Of a DNA stretch of 64,000 nt, positions 32,553 through 43,979 are shown one piece after another; the first letter of the stretch is position 1; each line of letters begins with the position of its first letter. Origin of the DNA: Nitrosomonadales bacterium (GTDB lineage: Bacteria; Pseudomonadota; Gammaproteobacteria; Burkholderiales; Gallionellaceae); assembly GCA_016199835.1 (NCBI GenBank), contig JACQFX010000002.1:1-64000 (forward strand). Direction: 5' to 3'. Under the pieces are notes generated by a model, which searched no databases, had not been told where the DNA came from, and was given only the letters and a program-made list of their open reading frames with translations. Both the position numbers and the translations under genes were made by a program.

Positions 32553-35538
<2,986 letters not shown>

Positions 35539-35568: not shown

Positions 35569-35949
35569 ATGCAACGCATCATGCTTAAATCCAAATTGCA
35601 CCGCGTGCGCGTGACGCACTCGGAGTTGCATTACGAAGGTTCGTGCGCGATAGACGATAACCTGCTGGATGCCGCCGACATCAGCGAGTACCAGCAGATA
35701 GATATTTATAACGTCAGCAACGGCGAGCGCTTCACCACTTACGCGATCCGCGCGCAACGCGGTTCCGGCACCATCTCGGTGAATGGCGCGGCGGCGCACA
35801 AGGCCGATCCGGGCGACATCCTCATCATCGCTTCCTATGCGATGTATTCCGAGCTGGAGCTGCAAAAATTCCATCCCCAACTTGTCTACGTGGACGAGCA
35901 AAACCGCATCATCGCCCAGCGCGATCACATCCCCGCCCAGGCTGCCTGA
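35569..35949 (+). CDS. panD: Aspartate 1-decarboxylase (pyruvoyl enzyme precursor)
   Basis: The 126 residues are the standard PanD length. The self-cleavage site G24-S25 in HYEGSCAID yields the pyruvoyl group from S25. The enzyme makes beta-alanine from aspartate for the neighbouring panC product. An AGGAG ribosome site precedes the ATG. Confidence 0.96.
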
Positions 35950-36058
35950 TTGTCTGTCCTGCAGCGGGACAGAGATGAGGCACGGTTATTTGACCTACTC
36001 CCTCCAGGGGCATATGCTTGCGCCAGCAGGTAAAAGTTTTGGCTCAGGGAGAATGGTC

Positions 36059-37435
36059 ATGAATAATATTCGGTCTTTATGCTTGCTGTCTGCGGTGATC
36101 TGCGTGGGTGCGGTAGCCGGGCGCGACGCGCATGCGCAAGCAGTTCCCTTGCAGACTTCCTCCAACCAGAATCTGTCAGAGAGCCTTCTTGTCGAGGCGG
36201 ATGCCCTGCTCAAGGCGCATAAGCCCGCAGCAGCCTATGCCTTGTTGGCGCCGTATCAGACCGAGCGTGCCGGGGAGCCGGCATACGATTATTTGCTCGG
36301 CATCGCTGCGCTCGATAGCGGCAAGCTGAATGAGGCGATATTCGCACTGGAACGTGTGCTGGCGGTCGAGCCCGGCAATTTGCAGGCGCGCGCCGAGATC
36401 GCCAAGGCCTACCTGGCTGCGGGTGAAGCGGCAACATCCAAGCGTGAATTTGAAATCGTCCAGCAGCAGAATCCTCCCAGGGAAGTCAGTGCGACCATAC
36501 AGAAATATCTCGATATTATTGAGACGGCCCGTGCAGGAATGGCCACTACAGTGCGAGGATATGTGGAGGCGACGCTGGGCGACGACAGCAACGTTAATAG
36601 TGCGACTTCGAGCAGTCAGATTGCGCTTCCACTGTTTGGTGGTTCCCTCTGGAATTTGAATGCAGATGGAATTGCCCGTCGCGACACTTTCAATAATATT
36701 GGCGCCGGATTTTCCGTGCGCCGCCCCCTGTACAGGGACTGGGCAGTAATCGGTGGGGCGAATGCGAATCAGCGAACAAACAGTTCTGCGCATTCTTTCG
36801 ATACCGGTAGTCTGGATGCCACCCTGGGTGTCAGCCATACCAGGGGTGACAATATTTACTCGGCAGCATTGCAGGTGCAGAGCTTTGATCTGCGCAGCAA
36901 GCGTTACCGCGACGCGGCGGGCGTGACGGGGCAATGGCAACGCAATGCAGGCAACAGCAGCCAGGTCAGCATTTATTTTCAGTACACCTATTTGTCCTAT
37001 CCAGAACAAAGCGTGAGGAATGTAGATCGCTATGTATTGGGCGGGGCATATGCACGCCTGCTTGACGGGAAATTCAGTCCCAGCGTTTATATTGGCGCTT
37101 ATGCCGGCACGGAAAAGGAGCGGCAGCCCAATGTGCCTTATCTGGGGGATAAGCTCTACGGCGTGCGGACAGGGGGCGAGTTGAAACTCAATGCGCAAAC
37201 CACGCTGACCGGCTCGGCCAGCGTGGAGCAGCGCAATTATGGCGGGCAGGATCCTTTGTTCCTGGTGGGGCGTAGCGACACACAGTCCGACCTGAAATTG
37301 GGAGTGACCTATATCCCCGCGCAAAGATGGACGATAACGCCCAGCCTGGCTTATACCCATACGCGTTCCAATGTCACCATCAATCAGTATGACCGCACGG
37401 TGTTCAGTGTCAGTGTGCGCCGTGACTTCAACTAG
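36059..37435 (+). CDS. TPR + outer-membrane beta-barrel protein of the Slam (surface lipoprotein assembly modifier) type
   Basis: The protein has 458 residues from ATG 36059, preceded by AGGGAG at the right distance; ATG 36053 is too close to it. A signal peptide (about 1-25, ending AHA) leads to TPR-like helices (about 40-150: AAYALLAPYQ, YDYLLGIAALDSGKLNEAIF). A C-terminal barrel of about 285 residues (DUF560-like) follows, with alternating strands and a final strand ending SVSVRRDFN, an outer-membrane barrel end. Known Slams move TbpB-like proteins across the outer membrane. The next gene, 16 bases away, encodes a protein with a TbpB-like C-terminus. The family call is from architecture and motifs, not a search. 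Confidence 0.72.
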   Translation: MNNIRSLCLLSAVICVGAVAGRDAHAQAVPLQTSSNQNLSESLLVEADALLKAHKPAAAYALLAPYQTERAGEPAYDYLLGIAALDSGKLNEAIFALERVLAVEPGNLQARAEIAKAYLAAGEAATSKREFEIVQQQNPPREVSATIQKYLDIIETARAGMATTVRGYVEATLGDDSNVNSATSSSQIALPLFGGSLWNLNADGIARRDTFNNIGAGFSVRRPLYRDWAVIGGANANQRTNSSAHSFDTGSLDATLGVSHTRGDNIYSAALQVQSFDLRSKRYRDAAGVTGQWQRNAGNSSQVSIYFQYTYLSYPEQSVRNVDRYVLGGAYARLLDGKFSPSVYIGAYAGTEKERQPNVPYLGDKLYGVRTGGELKLNAQTTLTGSASVEQRNYGGQDPLFLVGRSDTQSDLKLGVTYIPAQRWTITPSLAYTHTRSNVTINQYDRTVFSVSVRRDFN

Positions 37436-37451
37436 ACCGGAGGGGAATGCC

Positions 37452-38930
37452 ATGTTCCTTCAATATTGTTTTCGTTTATTCCGCCATGTAGCTTTGCTGG
37501 GGCTGTTCGCTATGGTTTTTCCGGTGACGGGGTATGGCATGGTTGCGGGCCGCATGAATTTTGCGTTCGGCAATGTGGAAGCGATAGCCTCAGACGGCAG
37601 CCGCCATGCTTTGATAAAAGGCGCCGAGATCAATACGGGCGAGACTATCAGCACGGCGGCCGGGGCCAGGGCACAAGTCCGTTTCAGCGATGGCGGTTTC
37701 ATTTCGCTGCAACCCAACACCCTGTTCCGCGTGGATGAGTTCAACTACAAGAACAAGACTGACGGCGAAGAGCGAGGCTTCTTCAGTCTGTTGAAGGGCG
37801 CATTGCGTGCGGTCACAGGCGCGATAGGCCACGTCAACCGTGATACTTACCGGGTTACTACGCCCGTTGCCACGATAGGCATCCGGGGCACCGGTTATAA
37901 CGTGGCACTTAACGACAGCGGCTTGTTCGTGAATGTGGGCGAAGGTGCGATTTCCTTGGCCAATAACGCGGGGCTATTGGTGGTCACTGCGGGTGGTGCG
38001 GCATTCGTCAAGGATGGCAACACGGCGCCCGTGCCCAGTGACGAGTTGCCCCAGCTTTCCCCCGCGAGTTTCCAGCCCCTGCCTACTACCTACTATGCGG
38101 GCGTGGATTACTCGGGGCTGGATTTCAATGCAGCAGGCGACCTGGCCGGCTTCCAGCCGTTGCCGCCCGGTATCTACGTCGCAGGAAATGACCGTGGCCT
38201 GCCCAGCCTGATATCCGGACCAGGTTATACGCTGGCCTATGCCTATATGCAGTGCGGCGATGGCTGCTACGGATCGGGGGCGAGCGTGATTACGGATGTT
38301 ACAGCCGATTTCGGCGGTGCCAGCCAGTTACTGCAATACAGCGGAGGGGAAAATGGTGCGCTCGGATCGGCCAGCGTGACGTTCTCTGCCACCGATGGCA
38401 TCATCGGCTGGGGGCGCTGGGATGGCAGCACGGTCAACCCACAAGGTTACGATTACGGCCCACATCCGTTGTACTCAGGCGTGTTTCATTACGTGGCCGG
38501 CATCCCGACCGCAGACATGCCGGTGTCGGGCTCGGCGACATACAACCTGATCGGCTATACCGCGCCAAGCGCGACAGATGGCTCTGTGGGCTGGTCCGTG
38601 AATGGGACTATCAGCGCCGATTTTTCGACGTATGACATTGGCGTGGACATGACGGTCGCGAACACCGGCGCATACCATGCGTATGTAATCCGGGACACCA
38701 TGTTGAGCGCCCGCTCAGGCGCCACTTTCAGTGGTTCGCCGGTACCCTATTCCGGTCTGGATAACAGCGATTGCGGCAATGGCTGTTCTGCTTCGGTAAA
38801 CGGTTTCTTTGCGGGATCCAATGCGGCGCGCGCGGGGCTGACCTATTCGATCAACGATTCCTCCAGCAATCTGAGTGTGCAGGGTGCCGCCGCGTTTACG
38901 AAGGCAGCTCCGGTGACGTATGTGCCCTGA
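37452..38930 (+). CDS. Exported FecR-domain protein with a TbpB-like C-terminal beta-barrel (probable Slam substrate)
   Basis: The protein has 492 residues from ATG 37452 after GGAGGGG. A signal peptide (about 1-30) has no lipobox cysteine, so it is not an obvious lipoprotein. A FecR domain (about 33-195) has GAEINTGETISTAAGARAQV and VTTPVATIGIRGTGYNV. A long Gly/Ser/Tyr-rich region follows. The last about 130 residues alternate beta-strand patterns and end with VNGFFAGSNAARAGLTYSIN, then VQGAAAFTK. This closely resembles the 'G.F.G..A...G..Y......GvF..k' end of TbpB-type barrels. It is placed directly after a Slam-like transporter. Ligand and function are unknown. Confidence 0.65.
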   Translation: MFLQYCFRLFRHVALLGLFAMVFPVTGYGMVAGRMNFAFGNVEAIASDGSRHALIKGAEINTGETISTAAGARAQVRFSDGGFISLQPNTLFRVDEFNYKNKTDGEERGFFSLLKGALRAVTGAIGHVNRDTYRVTTPVATIGIRGTGYNVALNDSGLFVNVGEGAISLANNAGLLVVTAGGAAFVKDGNTAPVPSDELPQLSPASFQPLPTTYYAGVDYSGLDFNAAGDLAGFQPLPPGIYVAGNDRGLPSLISGPGYTLAYAYMQCGDGCYGSGASVITDVTADFGGASQLLQYSGGENGALGSASVTFSATDGIIGWGRWDGSTVNPQGYDYGPHPLYSGVFHYVAGIPTADMPVSGSATYNLIGYTAPSATDGSVGWSVNGTISADFSTYDIGVDMTVANTGAYHAYVIRDTMLSARSGATFSGSPVPYSGLDNSDCGNGCSASVNGFFAGSNAARAGLTYSINDSSSNLSVQGAAAFTKAAPVTYVP

Positions 38931-41012: not shown

Positions 41013-41654
41013 TTACTGTACGGAAATATATTGCGCCAGCGCTTCGATCTCGGCATCGGTCAGCGCCTTGGTCATGAGATTCATGATGCCGCCGGGGCTG
41101 TTGGTGCGGGAGCCGTTCCTGAAGTTGATGAGCTGTCCGCGTATATATTCCTTCTGCTGCCCGCCGAGCACCGGGAACATCGACGTGGTGGGAGATACGC
41201 CCTTGCCTTTTACACCGTGGCAGCCGACGCAGGCTATGCGCTGCTTGGCCGTATCGCCATGCAGGAAGATATCTTCCCCGATCGGGTTGCCTGCCGAACC
41301 GTTGCCTTTCATTTTTATCTGCTTCTCGAAATAAGCGCCGATATCGGCGAGGTCGACATCGCTGTTCACAGTTCCTGCCATGGCGTTCATGATCGGATGC
41401 GAACGTGCGCCGCTCTGGTAATTGCGCACTTCCTTTTCAATGTAATGGCCATATTGCCCCGCGAGCTTGGGGATCAGCGGCTCGAAGCTGATCCCGTCAT
41501 CGCCGTGACAACCCTGGCACAGGAACGATTTCTCTTTGCCTGCGACCGGATCACCGGCTGGGGCCGCAGCCGGTTTCCCGGCATATGCGGTCACAGCGGT
41601 GAACTGGATGAGCAGGGCGAGTCCGCAGGCTATGCTGTGTTTGATGTGCGACAT
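41013..41654 (-). CDS. Diheme cytochrome c, c4-like (paralog 1 of the cluster)
   Basis: This 213-residue protein has a signal peptide (AYA cleavage) and two class I heme sites, CQGCH and CVGCH. Probable Met ligands lie in IMNAMAGT and IMNLMTKA. The two-domain plan matches periplasmic cytochrome c4. It is closely related to the genes at 41669 and 43239 (shared ISFEPLIPKLAGQYG and FPVLGGQQKEYIRGQL segments), so they are duplicates. It is last of four consecutive diheme cytochrome genes on the minus strand. It probably shuttles electrons to terminal oxidases. Confidence 0.88.
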   Translation of the reverse strand: MSHIKHSIACGLALLIQFTAVTAYAGKPAAAPAGDPVAGKEKSFLCQGCHGDDGISFEPLIPKLAGQYGHYIEKEVRNYQSGARSHPIMNAMAGTVNSDVDLADIGAYFEKQIKMKGNGSAGNPIGEDIFLHGDTAKQRIACVGCHGVKGKGVSPTTSMFPVLGGQQKEYIRGQLINFRNGSRTNSPGGIMNLMTKALTDAEIEALAQYISVQ

Positions 41655-41668
41655 GGTGTTTCCCCGTG

Positions 41669-42367
41669 CTATTGGGCAGAAGCGTATTCCGCCAGGGCTT
41701 CGATCTCGGCATCAGTCAGCTTTTGCGCGATCTTGTTCATCACGCCGCTCGGGCTGTTGGTGCGGTAGCCGTCGCGGAATAGCGTGAGCTGCCTGCGCAC
41801 ATATTCCTTGTTCTGGCCACCGATCACCGGGAACAGCGAGGTGTTCGGAGTCAGACCCTTGCCCCGCACGCCGTGGCAATTGATGCAGCCGACCACGGTT
41901 CTCGATATGTCGCCGTGCAGGAACAGGTTCTTGCCGGTCTCGTTTTCCGCACCTGCGCCCTTCATCTTGGTCTGGCTGGCGAAGTAAGCGGCGATGTCGG
42001 CCTGATCCGTTTCATTGGCTATCGTGCCCACCATCGCGTTCATGATCTGGTGCGAGCGTGTGCCGGCCTGATAGTTGCGGATCTGTTTGGTGATGTATCT
42101 GGCGTATTGCCCGCCGAGGCTGGGCACCAGCGGTTCGAAGCTGATACCGTCCGTGCCGTGGCAGCCCTGGCACAGTATGGACTTCTCCTTGCCTGCGGCG
42201 GGATCGCCGGAGCTGCTGCGCAGCTTGACTGCCTCGGCGCTGTCGACGAAGGTGTCAACCTGACCGGTGAGCGGATTGGTGTCGTCGTTCTGGGCGAACG
42301 CAGCCGCCGTACTGAGCAACATGCTCAGCGCGAGTCCGGCAGCGATACTGGTTTTTATATGGAACAT
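41669..42367 (-). CDS. Diheme cytochrome c, c4-like (paralog 2)
   Basis: This 232-residue protein has a signal peptide (AFA cleavage) and heme sites CQGCH and CINCH, with Met ligand candidates in IMNAMVGT and VMNKIAQK. It shares ISFEPLVPSLGGQYARYITK and FPVIGGQNKEYVRRQLTLFR with its neighbours. An about 25-residue insert after the signal peptide (DTNPLTGQVDTFVDSAEAVK) is shared in part with the gene at 43239. It ends 14 bases before the next cytochrome gene. Confidence 0.88.
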   Translation of the reverse strand: MFHIKTSIAAGLALSMLLSTAAAFAQNDDTNPLTGQVDTFVDSAEAVKLRSSSGDPAAGKEKSILCQGCHGTDGISFEPLVPSLGGQYARYITKQIRNYQAGTRSHQIMNAMVGTIANETDQADIAAYFASQTKMKGAGAENETGKNLFLHGDISRTVVGCINCHGVRGKGLTPNTSLFPVIGGQNKEYVRRQLTLFRDGYRTNSPSGVMNKIAQKLTDAEIEALAEYASAQ

Positions 42368-42483
42368 GTCATTCTCCTCCGCCTGGATATAAGAATCGCG
42401 GCGGTATGCCTAAACTATGAAGGGCGGCGGTGATGCAGCAACACCGCCGTTACCATGAGAATCAGCCATTGATTCGGGAGTCC

Positions 42484-43215
42484 TTATTTTGGATCCCCAT
42501 CAGGCGAAACTCTCGGAGCCGTGGAAAGATAGGCGGCGATGTTCTTGATGTCGGCATCGCTGAGCTTCTTCGCGATGCCGCGCATGATGCCGACCTTCTC
42601 GACTTCAGGATCGTTCGCCCGGCTGTTGTCGCGCCAGTTGTTCAACTGGTTGACCAGATACACATACTTCTGCTGGTTGATCTGCGGGAAACGGTCTGCG
42701 CGGCCATTGAATCCGTGGCAGTCCTGGCACGCGGGCACTTTGCCCTTCACGCCTTGCAGCACGATGGATTTGCCCAGTTCAGGTTTGCCGACCGGATTCG
42801 CCGGATCATCGAGCGACTTCAAGTCGGAGAGTTCGACTTCATAGTCCTTGGTATTCAGGAACACCGCAACATCGTGGCGATCCTGCTCGGTCAGCGCCTT
42901 GGCGAAGCCGGGCATCACCGCACCCATGCCAGCCGGGACGCGCCGGTCGTTGGCGAGATCGTTGAGCTGTTTGATGATGTAGGCCGTGCCGATATTGGCC
43001 AGACGCGGTGCGCCCATGCCGTCGTTGCCCAAGCCTTGTTCGCCGTGGCAGCCCATGCAGGCGGAAGCATCGCCCTTGCCTTCGTTGAATATTTTCTGCC
43101 CGTTGGCGATGTTTACACTGACGTCGTTGCCTGCATAAGCCGTTCCCAACTGGAGAGCGGCGGCTGCGAGCACGAGCCGCAGCGATAAGGTGAATTTAGA
43201 TTTGCGCATTTTCAC
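42484..43215 (-). CDS. Diheme cytochrome c, divergent member of the cluster
   Basis: This 243-residue protein has a signal peptide (AYA cleavage) and heme sites CMGCH and CQDCH. It is more distant from the other three: its first domain has GNDGMGAPRLANIGTAYIIK and its second GRADRFPQINQQKYVYLVNQ. The order of heme domains and the overall length still fit the c4/c553 group. It lies between paralogs 2 and 4, 116 bases after the former's start. Confidence 0.87.
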   Translation of the reverse strand: MKMRKSKFTLSLRLVLAAAALQLGTAYAGNDVSVNIANGQKIFNEGKGDASACMGCHGEQGLGNDGMGAPRLANIGTAYIIKQLNDLANDRRVPAGMGAVMPGFAKALTEQDRHDVAVFLNTKDYEVELSDLKSLDDPANPVGKPELGKSIVLQGVKGKVPACQDCHGFNGRADRFPQINQQKYVYLVNQLNNWRDNSRANDPEVEKVGIMRGIAKKLSDADIKNIAAYLSTAPRVSPDGDPK

Positions 43216-43238
43216 TCCTGGATTCTTGATGGTTCCGG

Positions 43239-43979
43239 TTACAGACCGGAAATATATTCAGCCAATGCACTGATCTCGGCATCGCTCAGTTTCTGGGTGA
43301 CGATATTCATCACGCCGCCCGGGCTGTTGCTGCGTGTGCCCTGCCTGAAGTTGGTGAGCTGGATGCGCAGGTATTCTTTCTGTTGGCCGCCCAGTACGGG
43401 GAACATCGAATTGTCCGGTGTCTTGCCTTTGCCGTTGATACCGTGGCAGTTCACGCAAGCGACCATCATGCGGGTCATATCGCCGTTCAGGAACAGGTTC
43501 TTCCCGGTAGCGTTGTCCGTGGTTTCGCCCTTCATCTTGTTCTTGCTGGCGAAGTAGGCGCTGATGTCGGCCAGATCTTCATCGGCCACGGTCGCTGCCA
43601 TGCCGTTCATGATCGCGTTGGAGCGGAAGCCGGTCTGGAAATCGCGCACCTGTTTTGCGATATATCCGGCATATTGTCCGGCGAGCTTGGGAATGGCTGG
43701 TTCGAAGCTGATGCCGTCTTCGCCATGGCAGCCCTGGCACAGAGCTGATTTGTCCTTGCCCGCTTCCGCATTGCCGGAACCGCTGCGCAGCTTGATGTTC
43801 TCTGCGCTGTTGTCTTCAAAAGCATGTCCCTTCATGGGGTCGTGACCGTCAGATTTGGCGGCTGCGACTGGTGTGGCGGCCTCCTTTTTGTCGGCTTTGG
43901 TTGCTGCGAATGAGACTGTGGCCGTGAGTGCCAAGGCCAAGGATAAACCGGCAACAATGCCGTTCTTGATGTGAAGCAT
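43239..43979 (-). CDS. Diheme cytochrome c, c4-like (first gene of the cluster)
   Basis: This 246-residue protein has a signal peptide (SFA cleavage), a lysine/alanine-rich linker, and heme sites CQGCH and CVNCH. It shares ISFEPAIPKLAGQYAGYIAK and FPVLGGQQKEYLRIQLTNFR with paralogs 1 and 2. It follows a strong AGGAGGAACAC ribosome site and a likely promoter (44030-44058). It is the first gene of the four-cytochrome run and probably the most highly expressed. Confidence 0.88.
   Translation of the reverse strand: MLHIKNGIVAGLSLALALTATVSFAATKADKKEAATPVAAAKSDGHDPMKGHAFEDNSAENIKLRSGSGNAEAGKDKSALCQGCHGEDGISFEPAIPKLAGQYAGYIAKQVRDFQTGFRSNAIMNGMAATVADEDLADISAYFASKNKMKGETTDNATGKNLFLNGDMTRMMVACVNCHGINGKGKTPDNSMFPVLGGQQKEYLRIQLTNFRQGTRSNSPGGVMNIVTQKLSDAEISALAEYISGL

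Follow-up and report, generated by a model that had tools for sequence, protein, structure and literature searches.

In the 64,000-nucleotide stretch of DNA from a Nitrosomonadales bacterium of the Gallionellaceae (assembly GCA_016199835.1, contig JACQFX010000002.1, positions 1 to 64,000; referred to below as the window), a gene for a predicted SlipAM/DUF560 outer-membrane protein (OMP) of the type 11 secretion system (T11SS) is followed by a gene for an exported protein in which a FecR domain is joined to a C-terminal barrel of the TbpB type. The gene pair, the domain make-up and modelled folds of its products, and the conservation of the pair are observed. On these grounds we consider it probable that the two genes make up a unit of type 11 secretion, belonging to a separate branch that carries FecR, with the FecR domain most likely periplasmic. 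The features of the two genes are listed below.

36059..37435, + strand: SlipAM/DUF560 (T11SS, Slam-like) outer-membrane protein, 458 aa, assigned from PF04575 over cut-off and the AlphaFold2 (AF2) model, with a predicted local distance difference test score (pLDDT) of 92.7
36173..36535, + strand: tetratricopeptide repeat (TPR) helices, residues 39-159, expected to be periplasmic; seven helices in the model and a TPR_19 match
36548..37429, + strand: predicted barrel of 14 long strands, residues 164-457, from DSSP of the model and the SlipAM match
37452..38930, + strand: FecR-barrel protein, predicted T11SS cargo, 492 aa, from sequence, Pfam, NCBIfam and model
37452..37538, + strand: putative signal peptide without lipobox, approximately residues 1-29, by eye; helix 9-20 at low pLDDT
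37542..38036, + strand: FecR domain, residues 31-195; PF04773 at 65-167, PupR 6ovk Z 15.3 over 61-198
38049..38216, + strand: linker, residues 200-255, mostly at low pLDDT in the model
38217..38465, + strand: predicted handle/pedestal strands before the barrel, residues 256-338, from the model and TbpB C-lobe 5kkx over 257-487, Z 14.3
38466..38903, + strand: predicted barrel at the C-terminus (residues 339-484), made of eight long strands plus a short hairpin by DSSP; NHBA 6cuj Z 14.3, fHbp, haemophilins; NF041636 below cut-off

The two genes are co-directional and lie between panD (35569-35949, PF02261) and a purB-like gene on the opposite strand (PF00206/PF08328); the Pfam-scanned window neighbours include pantothenate genes and purB. 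The OMP open reading frame (ORF) has possible starts at 36053 and 36059 and a stop codon at 37433-37435, from which 16 bases lead to the cargo ATG at 37452, immediately preceded by a GGAGGGG stretch; the cargo stop codon occupies 38928-38930. Promoter- and terminator-like sites fell within the range given by shuffled sequences. At E <= 0.001 the source genome (2.81 Mb, 99.77% complete) gave a single SlipAM match, the product of 36059-37435, and a single FecR match, the product of 37452-38930. Since these sole matches adjoin each other and the pairing is a trait of a whole clade, as described below, chance adjacency was rejected.

Both sequence and model place the first product among the SlipAM/DUF560 (type 11 secretion) proteins, and translocation of the cargo through it is predicted. 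PF04575 (SlipAM) was matched with E 2e-9 and 37.9 bits, above the curated Pfam cut-off of 22, together with TPR_19. The AF2 model (52-sequence alignment) displayed a signal peptide, seven helices in the N-terminal TPR part and a barrel of 14 long strands, besides which DSSP assigned two short ones; fourteen is the strand number expected for a SlipAM/DUF560 barrel. The nearest solved folds among the 50 PDB matches listed for this model were BcsC and PelBC, and the C-terminus weakly matched TIGR03014 EpsL (31.7 bits, cut-off 275), as might be expected if the OMP exported something else, e.g., a polysaccharide, and the FecR protein were an unrelated neighbour. We regard this explanation as highly improbable given the SlipAM match over the cut-off, the conserved pairing with a mostly barrel-bearing protein and the lack of any polysaccharide gene among the scanned neighbours. 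Moreover, no solved Slam structure occurred among the 50 PDB matches listed, so the BcsC and PelBC matches cannot decide the matter.

The second product matched PF04773 (FecR) over residues 65-167 (E 1.3e-15, 58 bits, cut-off 24). Only about 30 residues, read by eye as a signal peptide, precede the FecR domain, which leaves no cytoplasmic anti-sigma part. No lipobox was seen by eye, the single cysteine within the first 30 residues being number 6, in QYC. In the AF2 model of this protein (45-sequence alignment, mean pLDDT 80) the FecR domain (approximately 31-195) was followed by a low-confidence linker and a C-terminal beta domain, the last eight long strands of which span residues 339-484. 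Comparison with the PDB by VIA-align superposed residues 61-198 on the PupR regulator domain 6ovk (Z 15.3, root-mean-square deviation (rmsd) 2.4, 127 aligned), residues 257-487 on the TbpB C-lobe 5kkx (Z 14.3, rmsd 4.0, 192 aligned) and residues 308-486 on NHBA 6cuj (Z 14.3, rmsd 2.5, 148 aligned). fHbp and the haemophilins (6om5, 7re4 and 8glo being among the matches) ranked after NHBA; as the model exceeds 400 residues, single-domain fold matches may be understated. These results point to an eight-stranded C-terminal barrel of the TbpB fold, judged by model and fold comparison without a separate measure of barrel closure. A profile of the cargo C-terminus also matched ten barrel-only cargoes (E 6e-6, probability 85), in contrast to the OMP profile against the same ten (probability 2).

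The earlier note on this DNA had described a gene for a Slam-like transporter followed 16 bases later by one for an exported protein lacking a lipobox and combining FecR with a TbpB-type barrel. This description was confirmed by the gene coordinates, the Pfam matches, the NF041636 match (below its cut-off), the models with their TbpB, NHBA, fHbp and haemophilin likeness, and the survey presented below; the C-terminal motifs that it quoted, including GAAAFTK, are present. Each of the three outcomes that it named as refuting it (a C-terminus without the barrel fold, a first product without a DUF560 match, a pairing that is not conserved) was checked, and none was observed.

To see how widely FecR genes adjoin SlipAM genes, three partly overlapping sets of genomes were searched with PF04575: 42 of 150 from the order, 28 of 274 from the class and 50 of 299 from the phylum gave a match. 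Places under the family cut-off were fetched for the order search and not for the class and phylum searches. L046 and L049, which PF04575 had not found, were left out of the 118 SlipAM genes kept, as were eight OMP ORFs with fewer than 220 aligned residues (two of them, L219 and L253, with a FecR neighbour), and no OMP ORF was obtained from L107. The barrel, FecR and OMP profiles used were grown from the window pair and favour its kin. A neighbour had to lie on the same strand within 400 bases, and barrel-less genes were those with no match to the grown barrel profile at E <= 0.01.

A FecR neighbour was found for 66 of the 118 SlipAM genes: 40 had a FecR gene with a barrel and 26 a FecR gene without a detected one, while 20 adjoined a barrel-only gene and 32 neither kind. 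Within the clade of the window OMP (FastTree, support 97), 57 of 64 genes were FecR-paired versus 9 of 54 outside it. The clade reappeared in a second tree of 98 rows, made without 12 long-branch or odd rows and 8 near-copies (55 of 62 FecR-paired, SH-aLRT 99; 57 FecR rows in the whole tree). Four of the FecR partners outside the clade (L232, L234, L236 and L237) fell into one group, with FecR upstream of the OMP. Throughout the searched regions (1.5 Mb), 69 FecR genes adjoined an OMP gene and 11 lay elsewhere.

A further scan, of GTDB genomes, started from an alignment of seven sequences; its best 80 matches yielded 77 named loci. An OMP gene stood beside the FecR gene in 70 of these 77, a proportion which, the scan being seeded with the cargo, says nothing about the share of OMPs that have a cargo of this kind; the named loci overlap the survey genomes (e.g., L177/L088 and L126/L033 are on the same contig), so the two counts are not independent. 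Among the seven loci without an OMP gene, L164, L171 and L179 begin no more than 160 bases from the end of the available DNA; L182 has 5.9 kb of upstream sequence with no OMP gene.

FecR preceded the barrels in every protein with both (40 in the survey, 65 in the named loci). One, two, three or four barrels were found in 31, 5, 2 and 2 of the survey cargoes and in 53, 6, 5 and 1 of the named proteins, respectively. The FecR-barrel genes lay downstream of the OMP gene in 38 of 40 cases, whereas barrel-only genes lay upstream of it in 17 of 21. A lipobox pattern, defined by a rough regular expression and not by SignalP, was met in 5/40 FecR-barrel, 4/29 FecR-only and 10/21 barrel-only genes of the survey, and in 3/65 FecR-barrel and 2/18 FecR-only genes of the named loci.

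The named loci include Sideroxyarcus, Azospira oryzae, Propionivibrio, Methyloversatilis, Polaromonas, Methylobacillus arboreus and Leeia oryzae, and further Agitococcus lubricus, Moraxellaceae, Fluviicoccus and Marinobacterium. The pair comes with barrels in the environmental strains Azospira oryzae DSM 21223 (L125) and Agitococcus lubricus DSM 5822 (L167); Leeia oryzae DSM 17879 (L177) has a barrel-less FecR partner and a CHASE2 gene at the locus. The named kin of the pair belong to the Pseudomonadota, and FecR partners in the survey also came from outside the class, within the same phylum. The distinct pair suggested in the earlier note, unlike the classic receptors, stood up as a conserved pairing in the survey, both trees and the named loci; its placing in environmental betaproteobacteria was too narrow. 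The locus L144, titled Limisphaerales, has the same pair, perhaps on a mis-binned contig.

Several loci departed from the simple two-gene layout. A second FecR-only ORF (about 250-360 aa) was noted just upstream of the OMP gene in L119, L121, L131, L135, L138, L142 and L157. The gene L082:6287-9745 encodes a 1152-aa FecR protein with a VWA-like middle by eye and a C-terminal TbpB_B_D match of E 3e-4 (below cut-off), i.e., a FecR-passenger-barrel layout. At L089:1376-6584 the parts are split: FecR (155 aa) and a protein of 1584 aa bearing four or five barrels come from overlapping but distinct genes, both of which begin like a signal peptide, and here FecR might act in trans. L247, which has a Pro-Thr-repeat layout by eye, shows what may be a degenerate FecR-like start (probability 70); the corresponding value for L246 was 15.

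As to the mechanism, PMC9090332 describes the Slam substrate TbpB as exported unfolded, held by Skp and folding outside, and proposes a C-terminal location for the Slam signal. By analogy, the cargo of the window would enter the periplasm through Sec via its signal peptide and remain unfolded there. The SlipAM protein would recognise the C-terminal barrel and pass it across the outer membrane, so that the barrel would cross first and fold outside. With such a C-terminal signal, FecR would therefore be the last part of the cargo to reach the channel. It would most likely remain periplasmic beside the TPR domain and might serve as a plug, a non-lipid anchor by which the protein, though unlipidated, is kept at the surface, and possibly also as a sensor.

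That FecR would stay inside is the weakest step of this explanation. We favour it because conservation within the cargo is much higher for FecR than for the pedestal and barrel (mean pairwise identity 0.50 versus 0.30), a contrast like that between the TPR part and the barrel of the OMP (0.44 versus 0.31), and because FecR folds like a regulator domain of the periplasm. Two weaker pointers are the partial correlation of distances over 32 pairs, 0.37 for FecR and TPR versus -0.20 for cargo barrel and TPR, and the first FecR hairpins being shared with LapA-type retention modules: PDB 5ix9 aligned to these hairpins (E 7e-4), and the aligned 5ix9 fragment itself matches NF033682, the family of those modules. 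In the LapA scheme, as outlined in PMC6890996, the N-terminal domain is kept in the periplasm and the remainder spans the channel.

A number of observations weigh against this account of the pair. Uncorrected, the FecR distances correlated with the OMP barrel (r 0.79) as with the TPR part (0.78), the partial values being 0.21 and 0.37, and distance correlations retain shared ancestry, so that the support for a FecR-TPR contact is weak. The match of the cargo FecR to NF033682 reached 29.7 bits, below the cut-off of 50. This family was matched in 57 of 100 genomes of the order, mostly below the cut-off (11 over it), many of the weaker places coinciding with FecR matches, hence the LapA likeness is not specific to the window cargo. 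The barrel itself was seen by NF041636 ("Slam-dependent surface lipoprotein", residues 334-478) with E 4.8e-6 and only 26.9 bits of the 80 set as the cut-off, and PF01298 (TbpB_B_D) gave no match in the window cargo at E <= 1 in Pfam. Among the 66 FecR partners, 26 lacked a barrel by the grown profile. In some of them the profile missed it: L085 and L236 end in a barrel-like motif by eye, and the long L082 gene has the TbpB_B_D match given above. In L245, L249, L252 and L257, by contrast, there is just a tail rich in proline or glycine, so the barrel can be missing. Finally, the cargo FecR weakly matched the NCBIfam families of the surface adhesin Lsa33 and the lipoprotein LipL45, which indicates that FecR can be outside.

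These last matches would suit another explanation, in which the entire protein, FecR included, would be carried across the outer membrane and then either set free or held loosely at the surface, in the manner of haemophilin, with FecR as an outward effector in binding or adhesion. The window cargo lacks a lipobox; haemophilin-type soluble cargo crosses the T11SS and is released, according to PMC8406197; and the cargo layout described in PMC12282271 is that of an N-terminal effector, a pedestal and a barrel. We rate this explanation as possible, though on balance somewhat doubtful. Within the cargo, conservation is highest in FecR, whereas the N-terminal effectors of the cargoes described in PMC12282271 vary, and FecR has the fold of a regulator domain from the periplasm. 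The secreted or surface-released fusion envisaged in the earlier note stays a conjecture, the conservation pattern leaning weakly to a periplasmic FecR; its overall interpretation was supported in part, in that the transporter, the fusion, the missing lipobox and the conserved pairing stood, the betaproteobacterial restriction being too narrow.

It is also conceivable that the pair is mainly a signalling unit, in which the OMP and the FecR protein report the state of the envelope or surface to an inner-membrane CHASE2 cyclase or kinase, with or without a translocated barrel. Of the 65 survey loci whose SlipAM gene is FecR-paired, 19 contained CHASE2-like ORFs, versus none of the 52 loci without such pairing, and Pfam confirmed CHASE2, with a cyclase or kinase, in six of ten proteins scanned. 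Because of this association we treat signalling as a serious rival for at least some of the family, and some barrel-less FecR partners adjoin CHASE2-like ORFs. As an account of the pair it nevertheless seems unlikely: no CHASE2 gene was found among the scanned window neighbours, the two CHASE2 genes of the genome lying on another contig; within the order CHASE2 is widespread, with 108 of 150 genomes having it; and 46 of the 65 FecR-paired loci show no CHASE2, though the regions are short.

The reading of the pair as a secretion unit with periplasmic FecR may be extended, rather tentatively and with some doubt, to a FecR that serves as a retention and sensing plug docked on the SlipAM TPR domain, the barrels being outside and the state of the displayed protein being reported inward in loci with CHASE2. 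If true, this would represent a non-lipid anchoring mode of the T11SS and a LapA-like surface display via a different secretion system.

Among the known systems, haemophilin/HrpC with HrpB (TXISS-1B) comes close: there, too, the SlipAM OMP is paired with an exported protein that carries no lipid and has a barrel of the TbpB type at its end (PMC8406197). It differs in having no FecR domain, and no haem receptor was found among the scanned window neighbours; the gene order of barrel-only cargoes, mostly upstream of the OMP gene, is likewise the reverse of that of the FecR-barrel genes. TbpB, NHBA and fHbp, which depend on Slam, share the C-terminal handle-barrel fold. They are lipoproteins, NHBA included, whereas the window cargo lacks a lipobox, and FecR takes the position that a binding lobe has in them. 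The surface proteins of Sphingomonas and Psychrobacter resemble the FecR cargoes, with their one to four barrels, in carrying several tandem barrels per T11SS cargo, but have Pro-Thr or Pro-Thr-Asp repeats, similar by eye to the layout of L247, and FecR is unmentioned in the text of PMC12282271.

The FecR domain is chiefly familiar from signalling proteins of the periplasm, and the FecR/PupR anti-sigma factors of cell-surface signalling share its fold. In these regulators, a cytoplasmic anti-sigma domain is located ahead of the membrane helix. The window cargo has a signal peptide instead, and no sigma-factor gene, ECF type included, was found among the window neighbours scanned with Pfam, so an anti-sigma role was rejected. 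LapA-type adhesins, retained by a module with similar first hairpins, use the type 1 secretion system. As the window FecR stays below the NF033682 cut-off and many FecR matches ring too, membership of that family was rejected and LapA is taken as an analogy only.

Multi-barrel T11SS cargo was already known, as PMC12282271 shows. Its cargo survey covers SlipAM clusters 1 and 3, none of the ten cluster 1 architectures has FecR, and the experimentally verified T11SS proteins are all from the animal-associated cluster 1. FecR was absent from the text of both T11SS surveys, and none of the publications listed in a search that left supplements aside links FecR with T11SS, DUF560 or SlipAM, though publications on CHASE2 and FecR were found; an entry in supplementary tables is possible. 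Because FecR is missing from the cluster 1 architectures and from both survey texts, the FecR-barrel protein is considered a novel architecture of T11SS cargo that goes with a separate SlipAM clade, which looks like an undescribed T11SS branch. A large clade of other SlipAM genes with one recurring kind of partner offers, in harmless species, a testable cargo for that branch. If FecR does stay inside, the T11SS could hold proteins at the surface without a lipid, with a possible route for outside-in signalling.

Some further genes were noted. The same genome (G000, contigs C60 = L270 and C63) encodes two proteins with LapA retention modules above the family cut-off. Upstream of the pair in the window, between panB and panC, lies a gene (32553-34700) for an exported-looking 715-aa DUF6600 protein with a proline-rich tail; a FecR-like start of this protein was considered and found unsupported (probability 2). 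Downstream, on the minus strand (41013-43979), four related exported cytochrome c genes stand in a run, two of them identified by Pfam scan and the others by eye.

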